Part shown: positions 9,601-63,914 of the stretch, in pieces
Layout of the letters: the number at the start of each line of letters is the position of its first letter
Position numbering within the stretch: the first letter of the stretch is position 1
From: Candidatus Anammoxibacter sp.
GTDB lineage: Bacteria; Planctomycetota; Brocadiia; Brocadiales; Anammoxibacteraceae
DNA: 64,000 nt
Assembly: GCA_021777105.1 (NCBI GenBank)
Contig: JAIQZQ010000004.1
Location: 34,451 to 98,450, forward strand
Reading direction: 5' to 3'
Translations under genes and position numbers: made by a program
Notes under the pieces: model-generated
Database searches by the model: none
Told to the model about the DNA's origin: nothing
The model's input: only the letters and a program-made list of their open reading frames with translations

Positions 9601-12126
9601 GCGCCAACACCGCCGCCGCAACCAGGAGGACCTCCGCCGAGAGATCCGCTAGGGTTTACAATTGCAAGCGTTCGGCCGGAAGGTCGCTACACCAGCAAGT
9701 TTTTTAATAACGGCATTAGTTGGAGTCAGGCTACGCCGGTTGCCGTTGTTAACGGGGCCGATACTCCGAATATTGATATAAACTTAAGTCTGGGAGGCAA
9801 AGTATCGGGAAAAGTCCTTAATTCTAAAGATTTTGAACTTAGCGGCATAGTTATAGAAGCGTATGAATCCGACACTGGTTTATGGATCAATTCAGTTACA
9901 ACTGATTTGTCCGGCAATTATACTATTAGCCTGCGGCCTAACGCTGATTATAAACTGAAGGCGTTTGATCCTAACGTAGTGCATAATGCGCTCTATTACC
10001 AAAACGTTTCAAGTTGGCATCAATCCGACAGAATACATATAGATCCGGCTGATAACAAGTCGGGCTTTGATTTCTCTATGGTTGATGATGGAGGTTTTAT
10101 TAGCGGCAAAGTAACTGATGAAAAAAACAGGCCTGTAAGAGAAGTGGAAATAGGCGTGTTTAATTTCGACACAGGGTCGTGGTTTGATTCGACAATAACA
10201 GACGTGGACGGTCTGTATAAAATAGTTGTTCCTTCAGGAAAATACAAAGTAGGCGCTTTGCCTGTGGATTCAAAAAGTCTTTCTACTTTTTACAACAATG
10301 CTTCAAACTGGAAAGACGCTGAGGCTGTTTTTGTGCCAAAGACGCAAGGAACCGGCAATATAAATTTCAAACTATTTAAAGGCGGAAATATTGAGGGCCT
10401 GGTTAAGGACAAATCAGACAATGCATTGCCGCAAATAAATATACAGGTTTTTGATTTTGCAACGGGGTCGTGGGTTAATGAAAGCATTACAGATAAGGAA
10501 GGCAAATATAATGTTGCTGTTCCGGCAGGCAAATATAAGATCAGGGCTGAAGCCCTTGACGTTAAATCCAAATTTGCCGGCCAGTTTTATAAAAACGCGT
10601 TTAATTGGAACCAAAGCGAGCCTGTTGCTGCCGCTAATGACGCGACTACGACGCTTGATGATATAGAGCTGACAAATGGAAGTTCAATTTCCGGTAAAGT
10701 TGTGGACGGCAATAGTTTGCCTTTGTCAAACGCAAAGGTTGATATATATGAATTTGACACCGGTTTTTGGGTTGCATCCACAAGTTCAGATAAAAATGGG
10801 GATTATACCGTAAAAGGGCTGCCTAACAATGATTTTCGGGTAAAAGCGTCGCCTCCGCCTGGAAGAGGCTTGTCTTGCGTGTTTTATAATAACGCTGTTG
10901 AATGGGATAATGCCTGGCGCGCAGTAATTAATAACAAGGATTTGGATAATATTAACTTTACCCTTGTTGCCGGCGGGTTGATTTTAGGCAAAGTAAGCGA
11001 TGATGTTACCGGAGATGGTATTTCCGGAGTGGAAGTCGGCGCTTATGACTTTGGATCAGGCAGTTGGGTTGGCAGCGGTATTACCGATGGAAATGGGGAT
11101 TATTCGATACAGGCTCCATTTGGCGTTTATTTGCTTCATACCGCCGCAAGCGGAATAGACTATGTGGATGAATTCTATGATAACACCTTGAATCTGGACG
11201 AGGCTAAACCTGCAATCGTTACGGCCACGAAGAATTTTAACGCAAACTTTCAATTGGGCACAGGTGGAAAGATAAGCGGTAAAATAAGCGATTTTGAGAA
11301 TGAGGATATTTTTGGGGCTAAAATAAGCGCTTTTAATTTTGGGACTGATTTATGGGTTAATAGCGGTCTTACAAACATTGACGGCGAATTTACAATAAAC
11401 GTGCCTGTTGGCAAATACCGCCTTGAAGTTAACGCTCCTGTTAACAGCGACCTAATTGACGCGTCGTTAGACTCGCCAATTAAGGTTGGCGAGGATGAGA
11501 ATGTGACTATTGCCGGAATAGCTTTGCAAAAAGGAAGAGGCTCTGTTATAGGCATTGTTAAAGATGACACAGGGCCGGTTTTGGAAGGTATAAAAGTAAT
11601 CGCTGTTAACGCTATTTCAAATGCCATTGCTGGTTCTGATGTCACAGACAGCAAGGGCGCTTATAAAATTAGCGTTCCTCCTGGAAGTTATCGGATAAAA
11701 ACAGTCTCCGGGCTAGGTGATGACAAATTTGTTGATAAATTATTTGATAATGTTATCAGCTGGGATGACGCTTCGTTGGTTAATGTAAGCAAAGATGTTT
11801 TACGCACTGTTGATTTTGTGCTGAATAAAGGCGTCAAAATTAGTGGAAGGGTCAGGAAGGCGACAGGCTCGATTCCATTGCCGGGTCTTGAAGTGCATGT
11901 TTTGCAATCCGACACGGGAAAATGGATAAACAGCGGTAAAACCGACGGAAATGGAAATTATTCGATAACTGTTCCTGATGGAGTTTATCGTATATGGGCT
12001 GATAATAAAGGCGTTAATGTTAATTCGCAATTCTTTAGCTCTACAAAAAGTTTTGACAAAGCGAAGAGAATTGTTGTCAGCGGGACTGATATAAAGGGTG
12101 TTGATTTTGATTTAACGTCTAAATAA
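6658..12126 (+). CDS. Giant (1,822 aa) secreted protein with about 16 carboxypeptidase-regulatory-like/CnaB-like beta-sandwich repeats and Pro/Thr-rich linkers
   Basis: Signal/TM N-terminus; repeated ~95-aa unit (I.GKV.D....I.GV.V.A.DF.TG.WV.SG.TD..GNYSI.VP.G.YKV......F...FY.N...W..A..V.V). PTPTPP-type linkers at about aa 280-315 and 940-1000. Confidence 0.85.
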   Translation: MKQKERLFTIYKPNMIVLLLLALVLVFTARVGYSDGFIINSGLKLDINDIVLNVNGSMTVSGNLESGNGTITVSGNLVNTGTITASSGFIEFTGLSGTQTFNPGSSGSVFNNVTYSGTSTLTLANNIDINGAFLNKTGAFDAGLFNMNIAGDWNNEGTFLPGSSTVTFDGVNQTIKGSNTFYNLAKVASSPVTLTFEGSKSQTITNNLILQGIPGVLISLRSDASPTQFKIAVTETGRSILSFLDVKDSDASGGKLLEVGDDSVDSGNNTNWQFFVPTTPTPPPAGTPVPTPPGGGGGGGGPVATPAPTPAPAPSGSIIGNVADSKLRPIKGIFVDAYDFFSGLWIGGAKTDELGDYTITNIAAGTYKVGVDVSDTAFVEQFFNKANWATADKVIVTETAGRSGINFILTNGNFIRGKVSDSASNPVPGIFVDAFDSVTREWVSDSLTDGQGNYSITVPPGSYKVAVNTLGTDFLREFFLDSGSFEDALEIVVTANKNAENKNFSLSKGNTIKGQITDIFNNKLQGVFVNVFDASSGELVNFGETDSDGNYEVAVLPGRYNVVVEVFGTNFSPAIRESVVVKSNGESPIINFILNVSNFVKGKVASSTGAPLANIFIEALNSETGVFVDFGVTGLTGEYSIPLHPGGYTIKVNTDGTNFLESSQDINMVASDVTVDFTLKFGNLIHGNVTDSSNAPVFGVTVNAFDFKTGVWAGAGATDINGDYSIPVVPGSYKVGIDPFGTNFAPIFYDNVDWDNAESVTVFEVGDTLDINIVVPEGSFIEGKVTAGSNPISGVIVEVYDFQSDTWINSDKTDNDGNYSVPVMAGLYKVGTFALKQGFADEFYNNTGVNFADKVTVIPGKTVSRINFELDPGGSISGLVTNGSTPIKDIEVNAFEFETNRWVSSGLTDADGNYKISGLTEGNYRVWAFDPDGFTPPPPVVATPTPQAPSATPTPAPISGGTPTPPGPTPAPTPPPPGPPPAPTPPPQPGGPPPRDPLGFTIASVRPEGRYTSKFFNNGISWSQATPVAVVNGADTPNIDINLSLGGKVSGKVLNSKDFELSGIVIEAYESDTGLWINSVTTDLSGNYTISLRPNADYKLKAFDPNVVHNALYYQNVSSWHQSDRIHIDPADNKSGFDFSMVDDGGFISGKVTDEKNRPVREVEIGVFNFDTGSWFDSTITDVDGLYKIVVPSGKYKVGALPVDSKSLSTFYNNASNWKDAEAVFVPKTQGTGNINFKLFKGGNIEGLVKDKSDNALPQINIQVFDFATGSWVNESITDKEGKYNVAVPAGKYKIRAEALDVKSKFAGQFYKNAFNWNQSEPVAAANDATTTLDDIELTNGSSISGKVVDGNSLPLSNAKVDIYEFDTGFWVASTSSDKNGDYTVKGLPNNDFRVKASPPPGRGLSCVFYNNAVEWDNAWRAVINNKDLDNINFTLVAGGLILGKVSDDVTGDGISGVEVGAYDFGSGSWVGSGITDGNGDYSIQAPFGVYLLHTAASGIDYVDEFYDNTLNLDEAKPAIVTATKNFNANFQLGTGGKISGKISDFENEDIFGAKISAFNFGTDLWVNSGLTNIDGEFTINVPVGKYRLEVNAPVNSDLIDASLDSPIKVGEDENVTIAGIALQKGRGSVIGIVKDDTGPVLEGIKVIAVNAISNAIAGSDVTDSKGAYKISVPPGSYRIKTVSGLGDDKFVDKLFDNVISWDDASLVNVSKDVLRTVDFVLNKGVKISGRVRKATGSIPLPGLEVHVLQSDTGKWINSGKTDGNGNYSITVPDGVYRIWADNKGVNVNSQFFSSTKSFDKAKRIVVSGTDIKGVDFDLTSK

Positions 12127-32670: not shown

Positions 32671-34476
32671 ATGTTAAAAAAAAACAAAACGCAAAAAACG
32701 CGCTTTAAAATCTCTTTATTGCTTGTGTTTTTAACTATAGCAGTCACTCATGGGTTGTTTAATGTATGCGCATTCGCAAAAAATGACAAACAACTTGAAA
32801 ACGCAATGGAACAGCTGATTAATAAAGATTTTGCTGGTGCGGAAAAACTGTTTAATCTAAATTTAAAAGATAGCAATATTGACGTTGATGATAATTTGAA
32901 AGCCTTGTTGCATGAGCCGTTCTTTGTTAATGATGATATAGTTGGAAGAAATGCCGTTTCAATTGAAGAACTTGAATACATTAGAAAGGTTGCCGTCTAT
33001 AAAAAGCTGGCCGACTCAGTTACAAAAGGGATAGATTCGGAACGTGAAATTGTTTTTGCTTTGTTTGATTGGGTAGTCAGAAATATTGCTATAAATTGCG
33101 GCAAAAAGGAGACGAATATCGGCAAGGAAACAACGGCGTTTCCTTATGATTATATGCTGAGAGGATTTGGCGGCTGTGACAGAAGCTCGTGGGTATTGGC
33201 CACTCTGGCTAGCCAGGCCGGTTTTCACGCAAACAATATAGCTCTGCCAAACCATTCAATGACACAGATATATGTTGAAAACGGCTGGGCATTATTCGAT
33301 CCGTTTTATAACGTAATATTTATGAATGACGGCAAGTTGTTGGGCCTTGACGATCTGAGTGAACTTAAAGGGGTAATAAATAGCAATGATAGCTATATGC
33401 GCAAAGAACAAATTTTTGACGATTTAAAGCAGTGCAGAATTGAAATTATCTGCGATCCGTTTTCTCTTTTGCCGAAAATAAAAAATTTAGATGGTTTGCT
33501 TAAGGAAAATTATGATATTGCGCCTAATATTTATTACGATATTTTAGAGGAGTTGTCGTTTACCATATCATCCATGAGCGAGGAGGATATAGTCGAAGAT
33601 GGCATTGTCTCCATTCCTCACAAAATAGACGGCACAATGCATAATGTCTATATATCAATGTATCCGTTTGTTGAAAGGATAACTTATACTTTTGGAAAAT
33701 ATAGCAATAATATTGAAAGAAATTATCCTTATTTAAAATATTTTGCAGCAGCCAGAGAGTTTCAGATTAGCGGAGCTTATTTAAAAGCTATAAATGAGTA
33801 CGAAAGGCTAATGGCTTTGCCGGCTCATAAAGATATTAAAGATAAACTTATTTACAACCAGGCGTTATGTTTTTACGAGATAAATAATCTTTCCGCCGCT
33901 AAGAAATTGTTTAAACGTTTCAGAAAAGAGTATCCTGATAGCGAAGAATTAAATGGCGTTGATCATCACTTGAAATTAATAAATAAACGGTTGAATGGAT
34001 CGGAAATAAAACCTCATAAATTAAAAAAAGAATCGAAAGGCGTTCAGGTTGCAGAGGGAAAATATTGTAGCATTAAAAAGCAAATACTTATTAATGTTAA
34101 CGACCCTATTTATAAAAGCGCGTTATATGATGGATATAATGATTTGGGAAAGTCATATGCCAAGTCCGGCAGGTTTGACGACGCTATTTTAAATTATAAA
34201 AAAGCTTTGCGTGTGAATCCTGAACTGTTAACCGCTTACTATTATTTAAGCTCAACATATATTAATCTAAGAGAGCTAGACAAGGCTATTAACGAGCTTT
34301 TAAAGGCTTTATTGATTGCTCCTGATGACTCCGACGCTCATTATCTGCTTTGCATAGCTTATTATAATAAAAAAGATTTTCAAAATTCAAAATTTCATTG
34401 CGACAAAGCTGTCTTATTTGGAGAAAAGGTTTCCCCTAAGCTTATAGATAAAATTGCAAAAAAATTAGCCGGTTAA
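32671..34476 (+). CDS. Secreted transglutaminase-like + TPR protein
   Basis: Signal peptide; RGFGGCDRSSWVLATLASQAGFHANNIALPNHSMTQIYVENGWALFDPFYN (Cys-His-Asp); C-terminal TPRs (YKKALRVNPELLTAYYYLSSTYINLRELDKAI). Confidence 0.8.
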   Translation: MLKKNKTQKTRFKISLLLVFLTIAVTHGLFNVCAFAKNDKQLENAMEQLINKDFAGAEKLFNLNLKDSNIDVDDNLKALLHEPFFVNDDIVGRNAVSIEELEYIRKVAVYKKLADSVTKGIDSEREIVFALFDWVVRNIAINCGKKETNIGKETTAFPYDYMLRGFGGCDRSSWVLATLASQAGFHANNIALPNHSMTQIYVENGWALFDPFYNVIFMNDGKLLGLDDLSELKGVINSNDSYMRKEQIFDDLKQCRIEIICDPFSLLPKIKNLDGLLKENYDIAPNIYYDILEELSFTISSMSEEDIVEDGIVSIPHKIDGTMHNVYISMYPFVERITYTFGKYSNNIERNYPYLKYFAAAREFQISGAYLKAINEYERLMALPAHKDIKDKLIYNQALCFYEINNLSAAKKLFKRFRKEYPDSEELNGVDHHLKLINKRLNGSEIKPHKLKKESKGVQVAEGKYCSIKKQILINVNDPIYKSALYDGYNDLGKSYAKSGRFDDAILNYKKALRVNPELLTAYYYLSSTYINLRELDKAINELLKALLIAPDDSDAHYLLCIAYYNKKDFQNSKFHCDKAVLFGEKVSPKLIDKIAKKLAG

Positions 34477-54114: not shown

Positions 54115-55041
54115 TTATGTCTTATTTGATAACCGTTTAAGTGAATAAACACCATCCAATCCTGCTACTCTTTTCGGCGTTTTAGACTTGTCCGATCCAA
54201 AATTGACCTTAAACATATCGTAATAATTATTTACAAATGATTTTGTCCCTATTATGCCGCTATCAGTAAAGTATCTTGTCCTGAATCTCAGCCGGTCCAT
54301 GGTCGTAAATTCATAATTTTTGTTTCTCTCACTGGCTATTATCTTCTCATCAATGGACGCCCCTTTCTCGGTATCCAATCCTCCTTTTTCATACAAGTAT
54401 TCCCTGTAATCAGCAAACCTCTCCTTATCACTCATATCGTTATATCCCATCAACCCTAAATCCATTGATAAAAAGTCCCCCTTGTTCCCGGTCTGCGCAT
54501 GATAACCAATCGAACTCCACCTATAATCTTCCGGTTTATCAACCATATACGCCCGTACAGGATTCAAATCAATATAAGCAAGCAAATTTATCAAAGTATC
54601 CCCATTTTCAACCAAAACGCTCTTAAACCTGTCTCCCCAGAAATAACCTTGCCTGTTGTTTGCTCTATTATAATAACGGGAAAACCGCTGCTTAATCTCC
54701 TTTACATATTCCGATAAATTCGAAAACTTATCCCGGAAATAGGGGAGTCGGCCATCCTCAACGAACCTTTCATCCTTGCGAAAAAACAATGCAAGCCTTT
54801 TTTTCAGCTCAACATCCGAATAATCATCCGGATTTTTCATCCTGACAAGCAAATGGAAATGGTTCCCCATAATACAATACCCAAACACTTCCACAAAAAA
54901 CACCTTGCTCATCCATTTAATAAGGTTAACCAAATAATCCTTTTCCAAATCCCCCAAAACATACCCCGACAACGTGCTTTTAGTAATAACATGATATATA
55001 GCATCTTCTCCTTTTACGACCATTCGTGGTATTCTCGGCAT
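54115..55041 (-). CDS. REP-associated tyrosine transposase-like protein (RAYT, Y1_Tnp HUH)
   Basis: MPRIPRMVVKGEDAIYHVITKSTL...GYCIMGNHFHLLVRM (HxH); SRYYNRANNRQGYFWGDRFKSVLVENGDTLINLLAYIDLNPVRA. Confidence 0.9.
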   Translation of the reverse strand: MPRIPRMVVKGEDAIYHVITKSTLSGYVLGDLEKDYLVNLIKWMSKVFFVEVFGYCIMGNHFHLLVRMKNPDDYSDVELKKRLALFFRKDERFVEDGRLPYFRDKFSNLSEYVKEIKQRFSRYYNRANNRQGYFWGDRFKSVLVENGDTLINLLAYIDLNPVRAYMVDKPEDYRWSSIGYHAQTGNKGDFLSMDLGLMGYNDMSDKERFADYREYLYEKGGLDTEKGASIDEKIIASERNKNYEFTTMDRLRFRTRYFTDSGIIGTKSFVNNYYDMFKVNFGSDKSKTPKRVAGLDGVYSLKRLSNKT

Positions 55042-55316: not shown

Positions 55317-56240
55317 TCATTGTGACAAGTTCTTAAGGGAATATATTTCAGCGCATTCCGATATCTTTTTAGGCTTTTTGGTTCTCTTTGTGTTAAAGTA
55401 ATCTTTAAATTGCTCATAGTAGTGGCTAACAAACCCCTTTGTTCCGATTATTCCGCTGTCGGTAAAATATCTCGTTCTATATATAAATCTGTCAATATCG
55501 GACAACTCATATTTTGCCGCGCGTTCTTTCTTCACTATACCCTCATCAATTGCCGCGCCTTTTCCCGTCTCAATAGCCCCGGTTTCATACAAAAATTCCC
55601 TGTAATCGGCAAACCTCTCTTGCTCCGACATCTCATCGTATCCATTCAACCCAAAATCAGTCGAAAGCAACCCGCCTTGATTGCCGGTTTGTGTATAATA
55701 ACCTATTGAACACCACCTGTAATCCTCAGGTCGGTTTACAAGCCTCGCCCTAATAGGATTCAAATCAATATAAGCAAGCAAATTTATCAAAGTATCGCCA
55801 TTTTCAACTATAACGCTTTTAAACCTCTCACCCCAGAAATACCCTTTGCGTTCATGCCGCTTATTGTAAAAACGTGAAAACCTTTGCTTTATTTCGCGCA
55901 TATATTCAGACAAATTTGAAAATTTTTCTCGAAAATAGGGGACCTGTCCATCCGTCACAACCTTATCCTTATCGTTATTCAAAAGCCCAATACGCCTTTT
56001 CACATCCGAGTCTGAATAATTGTCTGACGTTTTCATTTTTACCGCCAGGTGAAAATGGTTTCCCATAATACAAAACCCAAACACCTCGGCAAAGTATATC
56101 GCGCTAAACCGCTTAATCAAACCAAACAAAAAATCCTTCTCCACATCCCCCAAAACAAACCCATCCAACGCCGTGCGCGATATAACATGATAAATCCCCT
56201 CCTCGTTTTTAAGCATCATCCTTGGTATCCTCGGCATCAT
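55317..56240 (-). CDS. REP-associated tyrosine transposase-like protein (RAYT), paralog
   Basis: MPRIPRMMLKNEEGIYHVISRTALDGFVLGDVEKD...FCIMGNHFHLAVKM...GYFWGERFKSVIVENGDTLINLLAYIDLNPIRA. Confidence 0.9.
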   Translation of the reverse strand: MMPRIPRMMLKNEEGIYHVISRTALDGFVLGDVEKDFLFGLIKRFSAIYFAEVFGFCIMGNHFHLAVKMKTSDNYSDSDVKRRIGLLNNDKDKVVTDGQVPYFREKFSNLSEYMREIKQRFSRFYNKRHERKGYFWGERFKSVIVENGDTLINLLAYIDLNPIRARLVNRPEDYRWCSIGYYTQTGNQGGLLSTDFGLNGYDEMSEQERFADYREFLYETGAIETGKGAAIDEGIVKKERAAKYELSDIDRFIYRTRYFTDSGIIGTKGFVSHYYEQFKDYFNTKRTKKPKKISECAEIYSLKNLSQ

Positions 56241-56460: not shown

Positions 56461-57074
56461 TTAGGTTTGACCCCATGGGTTTTTCATCATCATATAACAT
56501 ACTCGCCTATAACCGTCCTCTGGATGTCTAACATAAAAATTTATTATTGATTGTTTTTCCCACTCTTCAAGCCAATTGTCCCGAGGCACTAATCCATTGT
56601 GTTCGTTTAATTTGCCATAACGTTTCTTCCAATCATTAAATTTTACCGCTGAGATACCTATCCAACTTAAAAGCTGTTTTACTCTTATTTCGCATTTAAG
56701 GCTCCATGAATTTACAAAATCTACCACTTCATCACGTTTATCAGGTTCTACCCATTTGGTGTTTAATTTCCCCCAAGCTTTTTTTTTAATGATACATGCT
56801 CTTCCATTAGTTCTGAAAGGACTTCATTTTTACGGGTTAATTTGGACTCCAGTTCGCTTATCTTTTTCTCTTTCGCGCGACTTTCTGTTCCTCTGTCATT
56901 ATCAAATACTTTCACCGAATTATCAAAAAATTTAGCCTGCCATTTATAAAATAAGGTTGGATGAATTCCATTTTCTTCGCATATTGCTGATACTGGTTTT
57001 TTGCTTAAAAAGTGTTCTTTTAGAAGGATTACTTTCTCTTCACTGCTAAATTTACGGCGGGTTTTCTTCTCCAT
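56461..57074 (-). pseudogene. Truncated IS3-family transposase: OrfA (56763-57074) plus N-terminal OrfB fragment (56461-56727 and upstream open frame)
   Basis: OrfA: RRKFSSEEKVILLKEHFLSKKPVSAICEENGIHPTLFYKWQ. OrfB start reads on in -1 frame after an A9G run (T9 at 56779-56787) as KKKAWGKLNTKWVEPDKRDEVVDFVNSW...; ends prematurely at NPWGQT*. Confidence 0.85.
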
Positions 57075-57356: not shown

Positions 57357-57443
57357 AGCTAACGTCAAGCATCACCGGCAAAATAAAGGTGCAGATAGAA
57401 GCGGCGCAGCTTTATTTTGTCCGAGTGCATACGTTTGTTAGAG
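57357..57443 (-). other. attC-like integron recombination site A
   Basis: Minus strand: CTCTAAC (R'') ... GTTAGCT (R'); inner arms CAAAATAAAG/CTTTATTTTG; directly downstream of the HerA stop codon. Confidence 0.75.
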
Positions 57444-57447
57444 CCTA

Positions 57448-59205
57448 TTATTCTTTTTTCCATCGTTTTATCACATCGTCAAAGGATATATCTTTCCAAT
57501 CCTCTTTCCATTCATTATGAAACTTTATACTTTCTGATTTCGGTTCAGGATTTGGCCTTTCCATTTTTACAATTGCTGGCATTGGTGTAGCATCTCCAAC
57601 AACTAAACATTCACCTGCTGATAATGTTGGGAGAATATCTGTTATTGAAATAGCATTATTTGGTAATAAATTTTTGATGTAATTCTGGTCATTAATATTT
57701 GTTAATCTTAATGCGACAAAATTATTACATTGTGAAAAAATAGTGTCCGATACTTCGGATGGTCTTTGACTAACAACCATTAAGCTCAAACCGTATTTTC
57801 TTCCTTCTTTGGCAATTCTTTCAATTGATTTTTTAGACGCTTTATATTCTGCGCCACCTGATTTAGGTATATAATTATGTGCTTCTTCGCATACAATCAT
57901 AAACGGAATATCATTTTTCTCATTATTTGAGTGTTTGAGTTTTGAATAATGAAAAGTAAAATCAAATACTAACCGTGAAATAAGGCTAACAGTAATACTT
58001 AAAACTTCAAAAGGAACACCACTTAAATCAATTACAGTAATATTAGATTTGTCTATATATCCTAAAAATTGTTTCAGAATATCTATAAAATCATCAGTAT
58101 CGTATTTTGAACCATCAGCCTTATTGGGTTTTAACAAAAATGATAATCTTTTATCACTAATTTTTGTTTCCAATCTTGAAATAAATCTATTAAATTCACC
58201 GTTAAAAGCTCCATTACTTGCCTTTGTAGCTTTTGCGGTTGATGGTGTAATAAAATCTAAAATCTTATCAAAGTATTCTGTCCTTTCATCAATTAATGAA
58301 CCATCACTTAATTTTGGTTTTTGTTCTTCATTCTCAATTTTATTTATAACTTCATTGTTCATATTGTAAATGTAGTTATAAACTTCTGCTATGCTAAAGT
58401 ACACAGGTGTGTCGTAAGTAATATTATGTAATGTTGGGTTATGCTTTTCCTTATTTACGATAACCGATTTTTTAAATTGGGATACTTGATTATGTGAATT
58501 TTGTTCATTACTCTCAATAAACATTGCTTCCAACTCTTCTGAATTCATTAACCAATAAGGAAGTTTTAATTTATCTACATCAAGAATGTTTAAATTAAAT
58601 TTTTCTTCATCTTCTATTGTAAATGCAGACTTATATTCGGAATGAATATCAAAGATTATAATATGAGGGTTTTTAAGTTGTTCCTTATTTAAGTTTTTCT
58701 TATCAGAGATACCTACGACATCTTGTAATATTTTCGCAACAGAACAAGATTTTCCAGACCCCGTTGAGCCAACAATAGCAATATGTTTACTAAAAAAACT
58801 GTTTCCGTTAATATGGAAAATTATTTTTTTGTTTTGTATTAATTGACCTAATTCAAAAGAGTAAACACTATCTTTATTAAAGATGTTTTTCATAACATAT
58901 TCGTCAATAATGTAAACAAATTCAGTTGGCGAAGGTAAAGATGCACTCCCTTGCTGAAATTGGTTATTAGAAAATATTCCAATAGGTTGTGTACTTATAA
59001 TATATTGTTCGTTTTCATTTACCTTGATGTTTTGAATTACACAAATAACAAAATCCAAATTACCTTCTTTAACCTGTAAGTACTTGCCTATTTGGATTTC
59101 CTTTTTGTTTTCCTCGAAAGATTTATCGTTATCTATTTTTACAAGAATAGAATTCGAAGCACTTTCAATTACGCTACCAATTTTTTTTAGTTTAGTTTCA
59201 TCCAT
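57448..59205 (-). CDS. herA: HerA-like hexameric ATPase (predicted defence system component)
   Basis: 585 aa; Walker A HIAIVGSTGSGKSCSVAKIL, FDIHSEYKSAF, Walker B PFMIVCEEAHNYIPK, VVSQRPSEVSDTIFSQCNNFVALRLTN. Confidence 0.92.
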   Translation of the reverse strand: MDETKLKKIGSVIESASNSILVKIDNDKSFEENKKEIQIGKYLQVKEGNLDFVICVIQNIKVNENEQYIISTQPIGIFSNNQFQQGSASLPSPTEFVYIIDEYVMKNIFNKDSVYSFELGQLIQNKKIIFHINGNSFFSKHIAIVGSTGSGKSCSVAKILQDVVGISDKKNLNKEQLKNPHIIIFDIHSEYKSAFTIEDEEKFNLNILDVDKLKLPYWLMNSEELEAMFIESNEQNSHNQVSQFKKSVIVNKEKHNPTLHNITYDTPVYFSIAEVYNYIYNMNNEVINKIENEEQKPKLSDGSLIDERTEYFDKILDFITPSTAKATKASNGAFNGEFNRFISRLETKISDKRLSFLLKPNKADGSKYDTDDFIDILKQFLGYIDKSNITVIDLSGVPFEVLSITVSLISRLVFDFTFHYSKLKHSNNEKNDIPFMIVCEEAHNYIPKSGGAEYKASKKSIERIAKEGRKYGLSLMVVSQRPSEVSDTIFSQCNNFVALRLTNINDQNYIKNLLPNNAISITDILPTLSAGECLVVGDATPMPAIVKMERPNPEPKSESIKFHNEWKEDWKDISFDDVIKRWKKE

Positions 59206-59217
59206 TATTAAAATCCT

Positions 59218-60549
59218 TTAACCAATATTATTAGTTATACTTAATAAGTATTTAAGCTCTTTAAAATTTGAAACTTCAACTCTTTCAATATTAATGTCTT
59301 GAAAATCCAATTGTTCATTATTGATATTGCCAATCAAAAACAAATCATCACATTTTTTATTATTTATTGCATTTATTGGCTCTGTACCTAATTTAGACAT
59401 TCTCAACCTAAATTCAAACCAATCGTCCTTTATTATTCTTTTAGGTTCTCTTAAAAAATCTTTTTCAAAAAAAGTATTTCCTTTATAACCAGTTGTTACA
59501 GATATCCCTTTTGAATAAAGCCTACTTTCAATATTAGACAATAAATCAAGTTTTGGTGTTTTAAAACAAAATATTGGTGTTTTTGAGTGAAGCTTAATTT
59601 TAAAATGGTATTTATTCAAATAATCAATGATAAAATTAACTATCTCATCTTCAAATTTATCAATGTAATCTGTGTCATAAATAAAATATCTTAATCTATG
59701 ATTTTGTTTTAAATTATCGGATAATTGAGTTCTTCTTGTTTTTAATAATTTCTGATAGCTTAATAGTTCTTTTGTCCATCTTGAAATTGCAACTTTCTTT
59801 GTTTTTTCTAATTGAAAAATGAAGTCCTTTTTTTCAACATTTCTATTGCTTTCATCTTGCTCAATACTTTTATCCGCAATTATTTGAATGGCGTTAGGGT
59901 AAAATAAATCTTCAATATCTTGTTGTGTAAAGCTACTATTCTCTTTTAAGAGTTTTTTTATATCTTCCACTAAATTCTGAAATGATTTGCCAATAATGAA
60001 TTTAAATTTTTTAGGTTTTAAAAATCCTTCGATGTCAATTGACAAAGTCAAATCTGTTTTTGTAGAATAATAATCCTTAATTCTTTTTAAGTCATCTTTG
60101 CTTTTTCTTTCTTTCGAAATTAACACTTCTATATCACTATCATTGGGGGGCATAATTTTTGAAATGTAATTAGAAATATATTTTTGATTTTTGGTTTCAA
60201 GTATATTTTCAATATCAGCTTTATTAATCGTTTTTTTGCCTACAGGTTCATTTGGAAAGTGTGCATAAAGAATATATTGAATGTTTTTATCTTTATTTTC
60301 AGAAAAATGAGCTAACATTTGCAGAAGTGGTTTTGAAATATCCGATATATTAAATGTCTTTTTCGTTTCGTGATATTTACATTGTATTGCTTTTATAGTA
60401 TCTGACGAAATAACATCAATATCTTCAACAATTCCTTCAACTTTTACATTCGTACCATCATCACTATTTAAAAGTTCTTCAAGTGTTTTGTTAAATTGGT
60501 AAACAAATCCTTTAATTGTATGGTCTGCTTCTCTATTCATTGTTTCCAT
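59218..60549 (-). CDS. DUF4297/Cap4-like predicted PD-(D/E)xK nuclease, partner of HerA
   Basis: HTIKGFVYQFNKTLEELLNSDDGTNVKVEGIVEDIDVISSDTIKAIQCKYHETKKTFNISDISKPLLQMLAHF: E...ED...QxK nuclease core; 12 bp upstream of herA. Confidence 0.75.
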   Translation of the reverse strand: METMNREADHTIKGFVYQFNKTLEELLNSDDGTNVKVEGIVEDIDVISSDTIKAIQCKYHETKKTFNISDISKPLLQMLAHFSENKDKNIQYILYAHFPNEPVGKKTINKADIENILETKNQKYISNYISKIMPPNDSDIEVLISKERKSKDDLKRIKDYYSTKTDLTLSIDIEGFLKPKKFKFIIGKSFQNLVEDIKKLLKENSSFTQQDIEDLFYPNAIQIIADKSIEQDESNRNVEKKDFIFQLEKTKKVAISRWTKELLSYQKLLKTRRTQLSDNLKQNHRLRYFIYDTDYIDKFEDEIVNFIIDYLNKYHFKIKLHSKTPIFCFKTPKLDLLSNIESRLYSKGISVTTGYKGNTFFEKDFLREPKRIIKDDWFEFRLRMSKLGTEPINAINNKKCDDLFLIGNINNEQLDFQDINIERVEVSNFKELKYLLSITNNIG

Positions 60550-60557
60550 TTATGTAG

Positions 60558-60687
60558 ATCTAACGTTGCGATCAGGTGCGGCGCACTACCACAGTAAAGA
60601 TTTACGTTTAAATATATAAAATACTTACAATGAAAACATTTGCAAACAAGAAGACTATAGCCGTCACCTGGATTTGCCTTGTTAGAA
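60558..60687 (-). other. attC-like integron recombination site B
   Basis: Minus strand: TTCTAACAAGGCAAATCCAGGTGACGGC...GCGCCGCACCTGATCGCAACGTTAGAT; R' matches GTTRRRY; CAGGTG/CACCTG arm pairing; 9 bp from the next gene's start. Confidence 0.88.
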
Positions 60688-60738
60688 AATAGAATTTTGA
60701 GGGATTCAGGTTTTATCTTCTTATTTTGCTTATATTAT

Positions 60739-60945
60739 TCATTTGTTCGCGTTAAGTTTATCCTCTACACTGTCAATAATATTGCAAATCATTTCTAAGA
60801 TTATAGACAAACCTAATGTGCCATCTTTTGAGAATGACAGCTCATTAACGCTTTGGTTTGTCAAATCGTTTAGAAAAACTGTTAAAGACTTTGCGTATGC
60901 AAGCTCATCCGCTGGATTATTTATGGGTTCTTTAAATTGAAACAT
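60739..60945 (-). CDS. Small acidic protein of unknown function (cassette-borne)
   Basis: 68 aa MFQFKEPINNPADELAYAKSLTVFLNDLTNQSVNELSFSKDGTLGLSIILEMICNIIDSVEDKLNANK; GGAG-like RBS upstream (aaaaggagaaaaacaATG on minus). Confidence 0.6.
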   Translation of the reverse strand: MFQFKEPINNPADELAYAKSLTVFLNDLTNQSVNELSFSKDGTLGLSIILEMICNIIDSVEDKLNANK

Positions 60946-60985
60946 TGTTTTTCTCCTTTTTGATTTACTTATTTGAAAAGGCTTA

Positions 60986-61026
60986 AACGGTTCTTTTAGA
61001 TGATAATATCATCTAAAAGAACCGTT
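60986..61026. promoter_or_regulatory. 41-bp perfect palindrome between divergent genes (candidate operator)
   Basis: AACGGTTCTTTTAGATGATA-A-TATCATCTAAAAGAACCGTT; 20-bp arms, no mismatch. Confidence 0.75.
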
Positions 61027-61059
61027 GTCAATGTTTATCATTTAGTTATAATGAAACTC

Positions 61060-61236
61060 ATGATTAAAAATAAACCAAAAAAGACTGAACGCTATACGCT
61101 ATCAACCACTCCCATAATTATGAATACGCTTCGGGAAGTTGCTGATAAAAATGACCGTTCTCTCAATTGGCAAATTGAAAGAATTTTCAAAGATTGGCTT
61201 ATTGAACACGGTCATCTGAAAAAAGAGACAATTTGA
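61060..61236 (+). CDS. Ribbon-helix-helix (Arc-like) DNA-binding protein
   Basis: MIKNKPKKTERYTLSTTPIIMNTLREVADKNDRSLNWQIERIFKDWLIEHGHLKKETI; start at 61051 or 61060, downstream of the palindrome. Confidence 0.65.
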   Translation: MIKNKPKKTERYTLSTTPIIMNTLREVADKNDRSLNWQIERIFKDWLIEHGHLKKETI

Positions 61237-61972
61237 TTCTTTTTTCTGTATCATAAATCATATCTTCAATTATTTTTAGTAATGCGGAAATTTCGTTTTC
61301 TTCTAATTCTATCTCTCTTCCGTCGTATCTTGCACTAGACCTATTTTCCCTTAATTTATTCAAGGTATCACAATATTTAGAATTAATGTTTCCAAGTTTA
61401 TGGTGCAAATTGTACTGAACGTGAATTCTTTTGTGGTTCATTGACTTATTTTGTTTACTAGGAATTGTTACAATGAAAGCTTTTGCTGCAAGTTCTACCG
61501 AACTAAATGCATTATCTATAAAAGAGTTTAAATTTTTCTGTTTTGCCGCATATTTAGCTGTATCTAGAAATTGTTTCGAAACACGGATGAAATTTTTAGC
61601 ATCTCCTTTATTGTATATGCTGTCAAATGCGAGTATCCATTTATTTCCGAACTTACATAAACTAATATGACAAGCATTTGGATCTTCATCTTCTCTAAGA
61701 TTCAAGTTTTCAATTTTTTCCGTTTCATGTAAATAAATAGGTTCACCTATTTGTTTTTTTACATTTTTTTTTATTTTAGCTTGTACATTAATTTTAACTT
61801 CATCATTAATACGTATTTCATCAGGTTTGCCATCACTATGAAAAATAATTTGGGCCGCTTGCAATGCTAATGGTTTTGGCAGATTCCCTTTTTCCTGTCG
61901 TCTTTTAACTTCTGGTGTTATCCAGATATCCATTGCTTGTTGAAATACTTTTTCATTAAACTCAATTGTCAT
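61199..61972 (-). CDS. Protein with C-terminal HEPN-like domain (cassette-borne)
   Basis: FIDNAFSSVELAAKAFIVTIP...HKRIHVQYNLHHKLGNINSKYCDTLNKLRENRSSARYDGREIELEENEISALLKIIEDMIYDTEKRI resembles HEPN helical bundles. Confidence 0.55.
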   Translation of the reverse strand: MTIEFNEKVFQQAMDIWITPEVKRRQEKGNLPKPLALQAAQIIFHSDGKPDEIRINDEVKINVQAKIKKNVKKQIGEPIYLHETEKIENLNLREDEDPNACHISLCKFGNKWILAFDSIYNKGDAKNFIRVSKQFLDTAKYAAKQKNLNSFIDNAFSSVELAAKAFIVTIPSKQNKSMNHKRIHVQYNLHHKLGNINSKYCDTLNKLRENRSSARYDGREIELEENEISALLKIIEDMIYDTEKRIKLSLFSDDRVQ

Positions 61973-61982
61973 AATAATGAGA

Positions 61983-62112
61983 TGCCAACGACACGATCAG
62001 GGGCGGCGTACTGCCACAATAAAGATTTACGTTAAAATTTATAAAACACTTACAAAGAAAGCAATTTAAAACCGGACGGCAATAGCCGTCACCTGCATTG
62101 GCCTTGTTAGAA
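61983..62112 (-). other. attC-like integron recombination site C
   Basis: Minus strand: TTCTAACAAGGCCAATGCAGGTGACGGC...ACGCCGCCCCTGATCGTGTCGTTGGCA; nearly co-linear with site B including the central loop. Confidence 0.87.
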
Positions 62113-62184
62113 AATAGAATCATAAAAATTGCGTTTTTGTTCAAGGTCAGGCCCTGACCCTTTCCCCTTGTTAGGCAATTCGAT

Positions 62185-62898
62185 TTACGTCCAATTTGGA
62201 AAACTAAACTTACCATCCTTTCGAATCATAATGTTCGCCTTCATTGTATTAGTTGGCACTAAATCGTCGAAAAGTACGGGCATTTTATGCTGCTCTGATG
62301 GAATGGACTTGTTGAGGCTATAACCAGATTTGATCTTTTGTAAGGTCCAAAGTTTGTTTCGTGAACTTCCTTCTGGTGGCTCTGCTACACTTCTGATATT
62401 ACCTTTTAAATAAGTCACTGCATGATCAGAAGACGAACCAATTATTTTTTCTACCTTATCAAGAACACCATTTTCATTTAAATCATCAAAACAAATTATT
62501 AGTCCTACTCCAAGAAGTACACCGTCAATGTCCATTAATACTTCATTTGGTGGAGGCTCTGAAAAAGTAATTGTATATGAAAGCTTTCCTGTTGCAGTGT
62601 CTACATTTGAAATATTGGCTGATTGAAAACTTGTGTCATCTCCTGATCTATCAACAGCCCATAATACAGACACCATAATGTTTTTTGGAGTCGTCGTACC
62701 ATGTTCTGGTATGATTACACCGCTCAGAATGAAATCTTTTGAAGGAATTATCTTTTGCACAAAAGAAAGAGTTTTTGTTATTCCATCTGTGAATGTTCCA
62801 ACACCGCCTATCAAAAGACTAATAACTATAAAAATTGCAACTATTTTGTTATTTTTCAAAGTGTCCAGATACTTATATACTTGGTTTTTTTCTGTCAT
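62185..62898 (-). CDS. Cassette-borne single-TM protein of unknown function
   Basis: 237 aa; N-terminal TM (IVAIFIVISLLIGGVGTFTDGI), beta-rich ectodomain, DLNENGVLD Ca-loop-like motif. Confidence 0.6.
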   Translation of the reverse strand: MTEKNQVYKYLDTLKNNKIVAIFIVISLLIGGVGTFTDGITKTLSFVQKIIPSKDFILSGVIIPEHGTTTPKNIMVSVLWAVDRSGDDTSFQSANISNVDTATGKLSYTITFSEPPPNEVLMDIDGVLLGVGLIICFDDLNENGVLDKVEKIIGSSSDHAVTYLKGNIRSVAEPPEGSSRNKLWTLQKIKSGYSLNKSIPSEQHKMPVLFDDLVPTNTMKANIMIRKDGKFSFPNWT

Positions 62899-62931
62899 AT
62901 CTCTTCTCTAGAAAATAATGAAAAACAAATA

Positions 62932-63042
62932 ACTAACGTTGTGGTAAGCCGCCCGAAGCAGCTAAATAAAATAAATACGAATACTAAAAAACAAATAAAA
63001 AACCGGCAAACTTGAGGGTCGGCTTTAGCGGCCTTGTTGGAA
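62932..63042 (-). other. attC-like integron recombination site D
   Basis: Minus strand: TTCCAACAAGGCCGCTAAAGCCGACCC...GGGCGGCTTACCACAACGTTAGTT; arms TAAAGCCGACCC/GGGCGGCTTA. Confidence 0.82.
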
Positions 63043-63242
63043 ACGAGATACTCAAAAAACATTGACAATCAGAGAAAGCTATGTTTTTACATTTCAACCG
63101 GAAATATCATTTCGATTGCTGCTTTTTTGTTTCAACTTCAATTGATTCTATGATAAATACTTTCATTTTATCAATCTGTTATTGAACAAGTATCTCTTTC
63201 CATTTGTTAACTGTTTTTAGCTTTTGACCTTATTTCTGCCTC

Positions 63243-63330
63243 TTCCAACGTTTCCCGTAACAAGCACGCCCCACAAGTCTATGCAACCTCGGTGCTTTCC
63301 GCATACTTCCACCGAACTGGATGGTTAGAA
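63243..63330 (-). other. attC-like integron recombination site E
   Basis: Minus strand: TTCTAACCATCCAGTTCGG...AAGCACC...GCGTGCTT...AACGTTGGAA; 15 bp downstream of the 63345-63815 stop. Confidence 0.65.
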
Positions 63331-63344
63331 GTAGCGAGTAGGCG

Positions 63345-63815
63345 CTATGATTTTCGTAATTTGGCTAGGTTTTTGCGAGCGTTTTTCACTTGATATCGGT
63401 GACCATGAGAGTCCTCGATATACAAATCGACAAAGTGCATAGGCGTATTTGGCGGGCCTCCGGTAAGATGTTGTTTGTTCCATACGATTTCATGCTTCTG
63501 GCCCTCAGTCAAGTTAATTGATGGCGATCCTGCGATAAATACTACACTCTCATAGTCTCCATTTTCCGTCATCTTTATTAAACTGGCAAGGCCAAGGGGG
63601 CGGCGACCGACGTTGGTCATCAATATGGCTACCTTGGCATGTGTCGTAGAGGACTTGCTGTAGAACGTAGAGTGAGCACTAAGTTTTGTACGATCGCGGC
63701 GCAGATTAATATATGAAACGGCAAGGCTTCCGAGCGCAACCAAGAAACTAAGACCAGATAGAAGCAAGGCTGCAATTGCGATTTCGTTTGTGGAGTAAAG
63801 ACTGATGTTAAACAT
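63345..63815 (-). CDS. Cassette-borne single-TM protein of unknown function
   Basis: 156 aa; N-terminal TM (IAIAALLLSGLSFLVALGSLAVSYI), beta-rich C-terminal region; flanked by attC-like sites. Confidence 0.6.
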   Translation of the reverse strand: MFNISLYSTNEIAIAALLLSGLSFLVALGSLAVSYINLRRDRTKLSAHSTFYSKSSTTHAKVAILMTNVGRRPLGLASLIKMTENGDYESVVFIAGSPSINLTEGQKHEIVWNKQHLTGGPPNTPMHFVDLYIEDSHGHRYQVKNARKNLAKLRKS

Positions 63816-63855
63816 TGTGACTCCTGCGAAAGTTAATAACGATAAATTAATCCTT

Positions 63856-63914
63856 GTTCAACGAAAAAATAACGGGCGGCGTTTTTTGCCGTCCGGTTGA
63901 TTTACTTGTTAGAA
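63856..63914 (-). other. Short attC-like integron recombination site F
   Basis: 59 bp. Minus strand: TTCTAACAAGTAAATCAACCGGACGGC-AAAAAAC-GCCGCCCG...GTTGAAC; plus-strand GTTCAAC fits RYYYAAC. Confidence 0.75.

Follow-up and report, generated by a model that had tools for sequence, protein, structure and literature searches.

An integron is usually pictured as one recombinase beside one attI site and one array of gene cassettes. The recombinase, IntI, acts on the bottom strand of an attC site, which it folds as a hairpin and joins by recombination to attI or to another attC. Here we describe a cassette array at the right edge of a 64,000-nucleotide stretch of DNA (the window) from Candidatus Anammoxibacter sp. 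It resembles the sedentary chromosomal integrons of the Vibrio type: the genome encodes an IntI with the IntI-specific insertion, it has attI and attC sites that are similar within the genome, and its cassettes carry mostly genes of unknown function together with defense and toxin-antitoxin genes. It differs from them in having many small arrays and nine attI copies with one intact intI, rather than one large array, and in the extra N-terminal region of about 180 amino acids in its IntI. Two further described systems are relevant. Clusters of attC sites lacking an integrase are known by the IntegronFinder term CALIN (PMC9024848), and Delta-attI-type gene cassettes belong to mobile class 1 integrons (PMC12901181).

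The window comprises positions 34451 to 98450 of contig JAIQZQ010000004.1 (C66), and its right edge is the end of that contig (98,450 bp). The assembly is a 7.65-Mb draft of 142 contigs, 93.6% complete with 5.5% contamination. We interpret the array with confidence as the distal portion of the cassettes of a chromosomal integron, with four complete minus-strand cassettes and an attI beyond the contig end, in a genome over which integron platforms are scattered. This interpretation, made in part by a preliminary description of the same DNA, is supported by covariation of the attC arms, by further sites found with a model built from the sites, and by an intact IntI elsewhere in the genome.

attC sites and cassettes at the end of contig C66

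The preliminary description proposed six attC-like sites, designated here A to F (Table 1). A scan of the last 7 kb for R''/R' boxes with complementary arms recovered A, B, C, D, and F, at coordinates within 1-2 bases of those first given. It returned six matches, including one chance match at 60424, compared with 0.4 expected per 7 kb from dinucleotide shuffles; for the arm score of site A the expectation is 0.01 per 7 kb. In all five sites the L'' arm carries an unpaired (extrahelical) A, and it is by this asymmetry that an attC is oriented and the array has its polarity. Site E has boxes, but it showed no pairing arms in the scan, its fold was no better than chance, and no model matched it. 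It was rejected as an attC and may be a decayed or very divergent one. Thus, boxes, complementary arms, and an asymmetric extrahelical base were found in five of the six proposed sites.

The bottom strands were also folded as single-stranded DNA. The expected hairpin was clear for A and marginal for B (z, -1.9) and F (z, -2.0). Sites C and D, which have long AT-rich loops, folded no better than shuffles, an uninformative result. Covariation was assessed on an alignment of B, C, D, F, and two sites from contig C87, with the variable loops trimmed and one single-base gap. The arm helix contained 13 two-sided (compensatory) changes against 5.4 expected, a number reached by none of 500 shuffles, and pairing was 86.5% in the true register and dropped to 21-42% in slid registers. 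A covariance model built from the sites matched about 30 positions in the genome (best E value, 4e-13), and searches with the DNA of the sites added more. No Rfam match was obtained in the last 14 kb of the window. These analyses establish the sequence, structure, and polarity of the sites.

The cassette genes lie on the minus strand, so that the attC bottom strand is the plus strand of the window, and the five sites bound four complete cassettes. The polarity is consistent with the earlier placement of attI to the right. That attI is not visible, because C66 ends at the window edge, and no intI was found on the 98-kb contig as assembled, which ends inside the array. Genes begin 9 bp (DUF4297), 11 bp (HEPN), 34 bp (237 amino acids [aa]), and 41 bp (156 aa) after the preceding site, as first described. 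As for the companion claim that they end just before the next site, the distances are 5, 52, and 73 bp, but 303 bp for the 156-aa gene once E is discounted. The close relationship claimed for B and C was borne out.

The largest cassette of the window (cassette 1, B to A; 3.2 kb) contains two genes and one attC and is predicted to encode a HerA-DUF4297 ATPase-nuclease defense complex. The two-component HerA-DUF4297 anti-phage system is already established (PMC11291478). Both window proteins match the solved defense complex PDB 9c1m over their whole length, and the nuclease motif (EDID...QCK) and the Walker A and Walker B motifs are kept, so that the adjacent genes and key motifs of the system are present here. 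The window pair differs in being borne on one integron cassette and in belonging to a planctomycete lineage. Plasmid relatives of the HerA protein reach 62.5% identity (Peribacillus).

Cassette 2 (C to B) encodes an HEPN-domain protein and also contains a 68-aa open reading frame (ORF) and, on the opposite strand, a small ribbon-helix-helix-like gene; these last two flank the perfect 19-bp inverted repeat listed in Table 1. One protein each is encoded by cassette 3 (D to C; 237 aa) and cassette 4 (F to D; 156 aa).

Table 1. Features of the cassette array and its left flank (window coordinates)
Feature	Position	Strand	Evidence and remarks
attC site A	57357..57443	-	3' end of DUF4297-HerA cassette; last site found at left end of array; arm score 12.5; fold z -4.7
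attC site B	60558..60687	-	~130-bp family; arm scan, fold, covariation; 19 further genome matches
attC site C	61983..62112	-	Same family as B; arm scan; 85% DNA identity to B
attC site D	62932..63042	-	~110-bp family with conserved 65-bp upstream block; arm scan
Proposed site E	63243..63330	-	attC status unsupported: arms unpaired; fold z -0.1 and +0.8; no model match
attC site F	63856..63914	-	59-bp family, commonest in genome; 62.4 bits (one of the six seeds of the model)
HerA-type ATPase, 585 aa	57448..59205	-	Second gene of cassette; PADLOC HerA 1.5e-177; PDB 9c1m_M E 2.7e-267
DUF4297 nuclease-like protein, 443 aa	59218..60549	-	First gene of cassette; PADLOC DUF4297 1e-41; PDB 9c1m_A E 2.2e-130
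68-aa ORF	60739..60945	-	Family with 9 copies in genome; no Pfam or PADLOC match
Perfect inverted repeat, 19 bp, 3-bp center	60986..61026	.	Between two divergent genes; read from sequence; candidate operator
Small ribbon-helix-helix-like protein	61051..61236	+ (against cassette)	Weak Arc-like domain match, E 0.036; ORF also open from 61000
257-aa protein, C-terminal HEPN domain	61199..61972	-	Pfam PF05168 1.2e-8
237-aa cassette protein	62185..62898	-	One N-terminal transmembrane segment by eye; no Pfam or PADLOC match
156-aa cassette protein	63345..63815	-	N-terminal membrane segment by eye; no Pfam or PADLOC match
Broken IS3-like transposase ORFs	56461..57074	-	HTH_Tnp_1 7.4e-11 on 56763-57074; just past last attC (A)

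The 68-aa ORF belongs to a family of 68-71 aa (MFQFKEP...), whose other genome copies lie on contigs C94 (twice), C64, C36, C13, C19, C41, and C30. Several copies are in cassettes, adjoining an opposite-strand ribbon-helix-helix or XRE-like gene, and the two genes possibly form a regulatory or toxin-antitoxin pair. Within 3 kb of the array's end, two tandem genes (54115-55041 and 55317-56240) were judged by eye to be RAYT-like, that is, to resemble transposases associated with repetitive extragenic palindromes (REPs).

Integrase genes, attI copies, and dispersed attC sites

The search for an intI that had been proposed as a check found one intact gene in the genome, on a contig other than C66 (C15:38136-39077, minus strand; TIGR02249, 364 bits with a cutoff of 265). 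Residues 188-489 of the protein align end to end with Vibrio IntI4 (PDB 2a3v), including the IntI-specific segment and the catalytic residues. It is a long form, and its roughly 180 extra N-terminal residues are shared with relatives in Brocadiales, Desulfobacterota, and Nitrospirae; named relatives include Ca. Anammoxibacter (63%), Ca. Scalindua (62%), Brocadia, Nitrospirae, and many Desulfobacterota. On C87 there is another intI, short and of the classical type, which is interrupted by stops and adjoined by attC sites. Searching with the first 187 aa of IntI revealed intI 5' stubs on C94, C102, C47, C1, and C105 and three on C123. The idea that all stubs arose at one uniform recombination breakpoint, intI codon 45, was considered and dropped, as their lengths vary (about 43 to 57 codons, with that on C47 longer).

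DNA alignment revealed a common block that extends from the 5' end of intI to CTTGTTA and includes an inverted repeat. There are nine good copies of this attI on seven contigs (C15, C94, C47, C1, C102, C64, and three on C123; nhmmer E values, 5e-17 to 1e-27) and a degenerate one on C105. Eight of the nine lie beside a truncated or absent intI: stubs adjoin attI on C94, C102, C123, C47, and C1, and on C64 the attI-proximal half alone remains. Mean identity among the nine copies is 79% over the 83 bp up to GTT and 45% over the 83 bp after it. The latter value equals that of shuffled sequence, so each copy leads into different cassettes. The C15 copy and the other eight share the same arrangement, in which cassettes start at the GTT where homology stops.

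Read in the direction of the cassettes, C123 (outside the window) has gene, attI, gene, attI, gene, attC, gene, gene, attI, gene. The attI blocks occupy the place of attC between genes, such that a gene is bounded at its 3' side by attI instead of attC, in the same orientation. This is the arrangement of Delta-attI-type cassettes. The C123 blocks differ in being chromosomal, about 300 bp long, and provided with an intI 5' stub.

The intI-attI inverted repeat has arms of 17-21 bp in C15, C94, and C47. Both arms have another sequence in C102 and at one locus of the sister genome, which suggests that the repeat is kept for its symmetry. Repeats of this kind, with 13-21 bp arms, were noted at L009 ~11690-11730, L206 2768-2812, L252 4900-4944, L213 ~3660, and L256 near the intI start. 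The repeat is a candidate operator or hairpin controlling intI or the cassettes. Separately, an element with a broken tyrosine recombinase beside an IS91-like transposase was recognized by eye (L010 1-2600 on contig C14, and L256 near attI). Its end sequence, GTTGAACGAAACCGC, recurs after attI in the sister genome, which would fit an element that targets attI.

Iterated nhmmer profiles gave 55 attC matches, a few of them partial, on 22 contigs in the regions examined, and many of these sites are internal to contigs, single or paired. The sites, about 50 in all, fall into three families, one of 59 bp (that of F), one of about 110 bp (that of D), and one of about 130 bp (that of B and C). About ten relatives of F with E values below 1e-6 lie on other contigs, and 10 of the further matches to B are nearly full length. 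D-type sites (62932-63110 and others) are part of a dispersed module of about 175 bp, comprising 65 bp of upstream sequence and the attC, which is possibly a clue to how genes become cassettes. On C64 (L216 203-333), a B-type attC is preceded by the 65-bp block found elsewhere before D-type sites, which would fit an exchange of attC modules at the R'' box. The clusters sampled contain the defense or toxin-antitoxin families TIR, BrnT, HicA, AbiP2-type reverse transcriptase (7.5e-190), AbiTii, bSEFIR, DruA-like, and PDC-S02; these genes were picked by eye and give no rate of defense genes.

Among 19 genomes searched, this one included, attC matches were obtained in 10 and none in the other nine at an E value of 0.001. 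About half of the related genomes thus have no match and form a natural negative control. A sister genome (G001) has three intact and about eight partial intI genes. A complete one-contig chromosome of the same order, Brocadiales (G012, 4.4 Mb), has one intI and 13 attC matches in at least eight regions on both strands, an intI remnant (weak) beside the attC cluster at 2.62 Mb, and weak intI-like fragments some kilobases from the clusters at 0.69 and 1.54 Mb. One of its cassettes occurs at two distant loci, 0.69 Mb and 4.18 Mb, that are 95% identical over 666 bp, and at one of them the homology begins about 6 bp or less from the attC crossover. With G012 and G001 taken into account, the scattering of sites and the presence of several platforms characterize the lineage and not one draft only.

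Alternative explanations and proposed history

Several observations weigh against an integron array with scattered platforms. Site A, which had been held out, was missed by the covariance model, and B and C were recovered by DNA similarity only, outside that model. The array runs off the contig end, and no end overlap of C66 with C15, C87, or any other contig was found; joining C66 to any of them on this basis was rejected, and the array polarity is equally compatible with C15 (reversed join) and C87 (direct join). For many attC clusters, the flank that was read shows no attI. Finally, in a draft of so many contigs with this level of contamination, some of the scattered contig-end sites may belong to one larger, broken array.

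The window array might be a plain CALIN, that is, a stranded attC cluster from an old integron that no working recombinase serves. We consider this unlikely. In its favor, C66 as assembled has five attC sites and no intI, and other clusters in the genome sit by dead intI genes (the interrupted gene on C87 and the stubs). Yet the boxes and arms of B, C, D, and F are still intact, closely related sites of these attC families are found throughout the genome, and one intact IntI is encoded. The locus also differs from a CALIN in that C66 stops within the array and an attI of their own is retained by several sister clusters. Similarly doubtful is the idea that the scattering arose by insertion of single cassettes at secondary sites instead of from multiplied platforms. 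Cassette insertion at secondary sites is known from experiments. Some contigs, among them C101 and C133, have a single internal attC site and no attI match in the flank read; this would fit the explanation, as would the G012 cassette at two distant loci with homology starting at the attC crossover. Such insertions would be of the attG type (attG sites are named in PMC12901181). Against this stand the nine attI copies and the intI remnants, which adjoin many clusters both here and in the sister genome and also lie near clusters of G012.

Two other explanations carry far less weight. The RAYT-like genes lie close to the array and the repeats are dispersed and form hairpins, features also expected if they were REP- or MITE-like (miniature inverted-repeat transposable element) hairpins moved by those genes. 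We rejected this as highly improbable on attC-specific features: an extrahelical A on one arm only, a GTTRRRY-like end with unrelated sequence past GTT, genes that begin 9-41 bp after GTT, and an IntI in the genome. Several related organisms placed in one bin could also account for the number of attI and attC copies. This explanation gains something from the draft state and reported contamination of the assembly but is improbable. Six attI-bearing contigs are 50-228 kb long, and one further contig carries three attI copies; the copies differ by 4-31% and are not strain duplicates; and the sister genome shows the same multiplicity, with scattered attC clusters also in the one-contig genome.

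For the integron array itself, the likely recombinase is the intact long IntI on C15. This enzyme would fold the bottom strand (the window plus strand) of each attC into a hairpin and recombine it with attI or attC, and each gene with its attC would thereby be excisable and movable. The most likely history is that platforms of intI and attI multiplied over the chromosome and that most of them later lost all but a 5' stub of intI by decay, so that attI and the cassettes were left. The surviving IntI may serve the orphan attI sites; such recombination, and action in trans, we infer. We further propose, tentatively but as a serious possibility, a distributed integron in which one trans-acting IntI serves many attI platforms that lost their own intI and kept attI with the intI 5' end, cassettes dock at many places, and some attI blocks act as cassette ends.

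Chromosomal integrons, CALINs, defense cassettes, and attI-ended cassettes are already known singly. The new part is the scattered multi-platform architecture, a combination of known elements. Full-text searches of open-licence literature only, which provide weak evidence, found no dedicated paper on integrons or attC in anammox bacteria and no paper on orphan or multiple attI. The cassettes, from their predicted products, are a store of accessory genes, including many with phage defense and toxin-antitoxin functions. With one intact recombinase, at least nine attI copies, and scattered small arrays, this genome offers a testable case for the multiplication and decay of integron platforms. It bears on whether an attI works without its own intI, and on the storage and spread of defense genes in bacteria of the anammox lineage.

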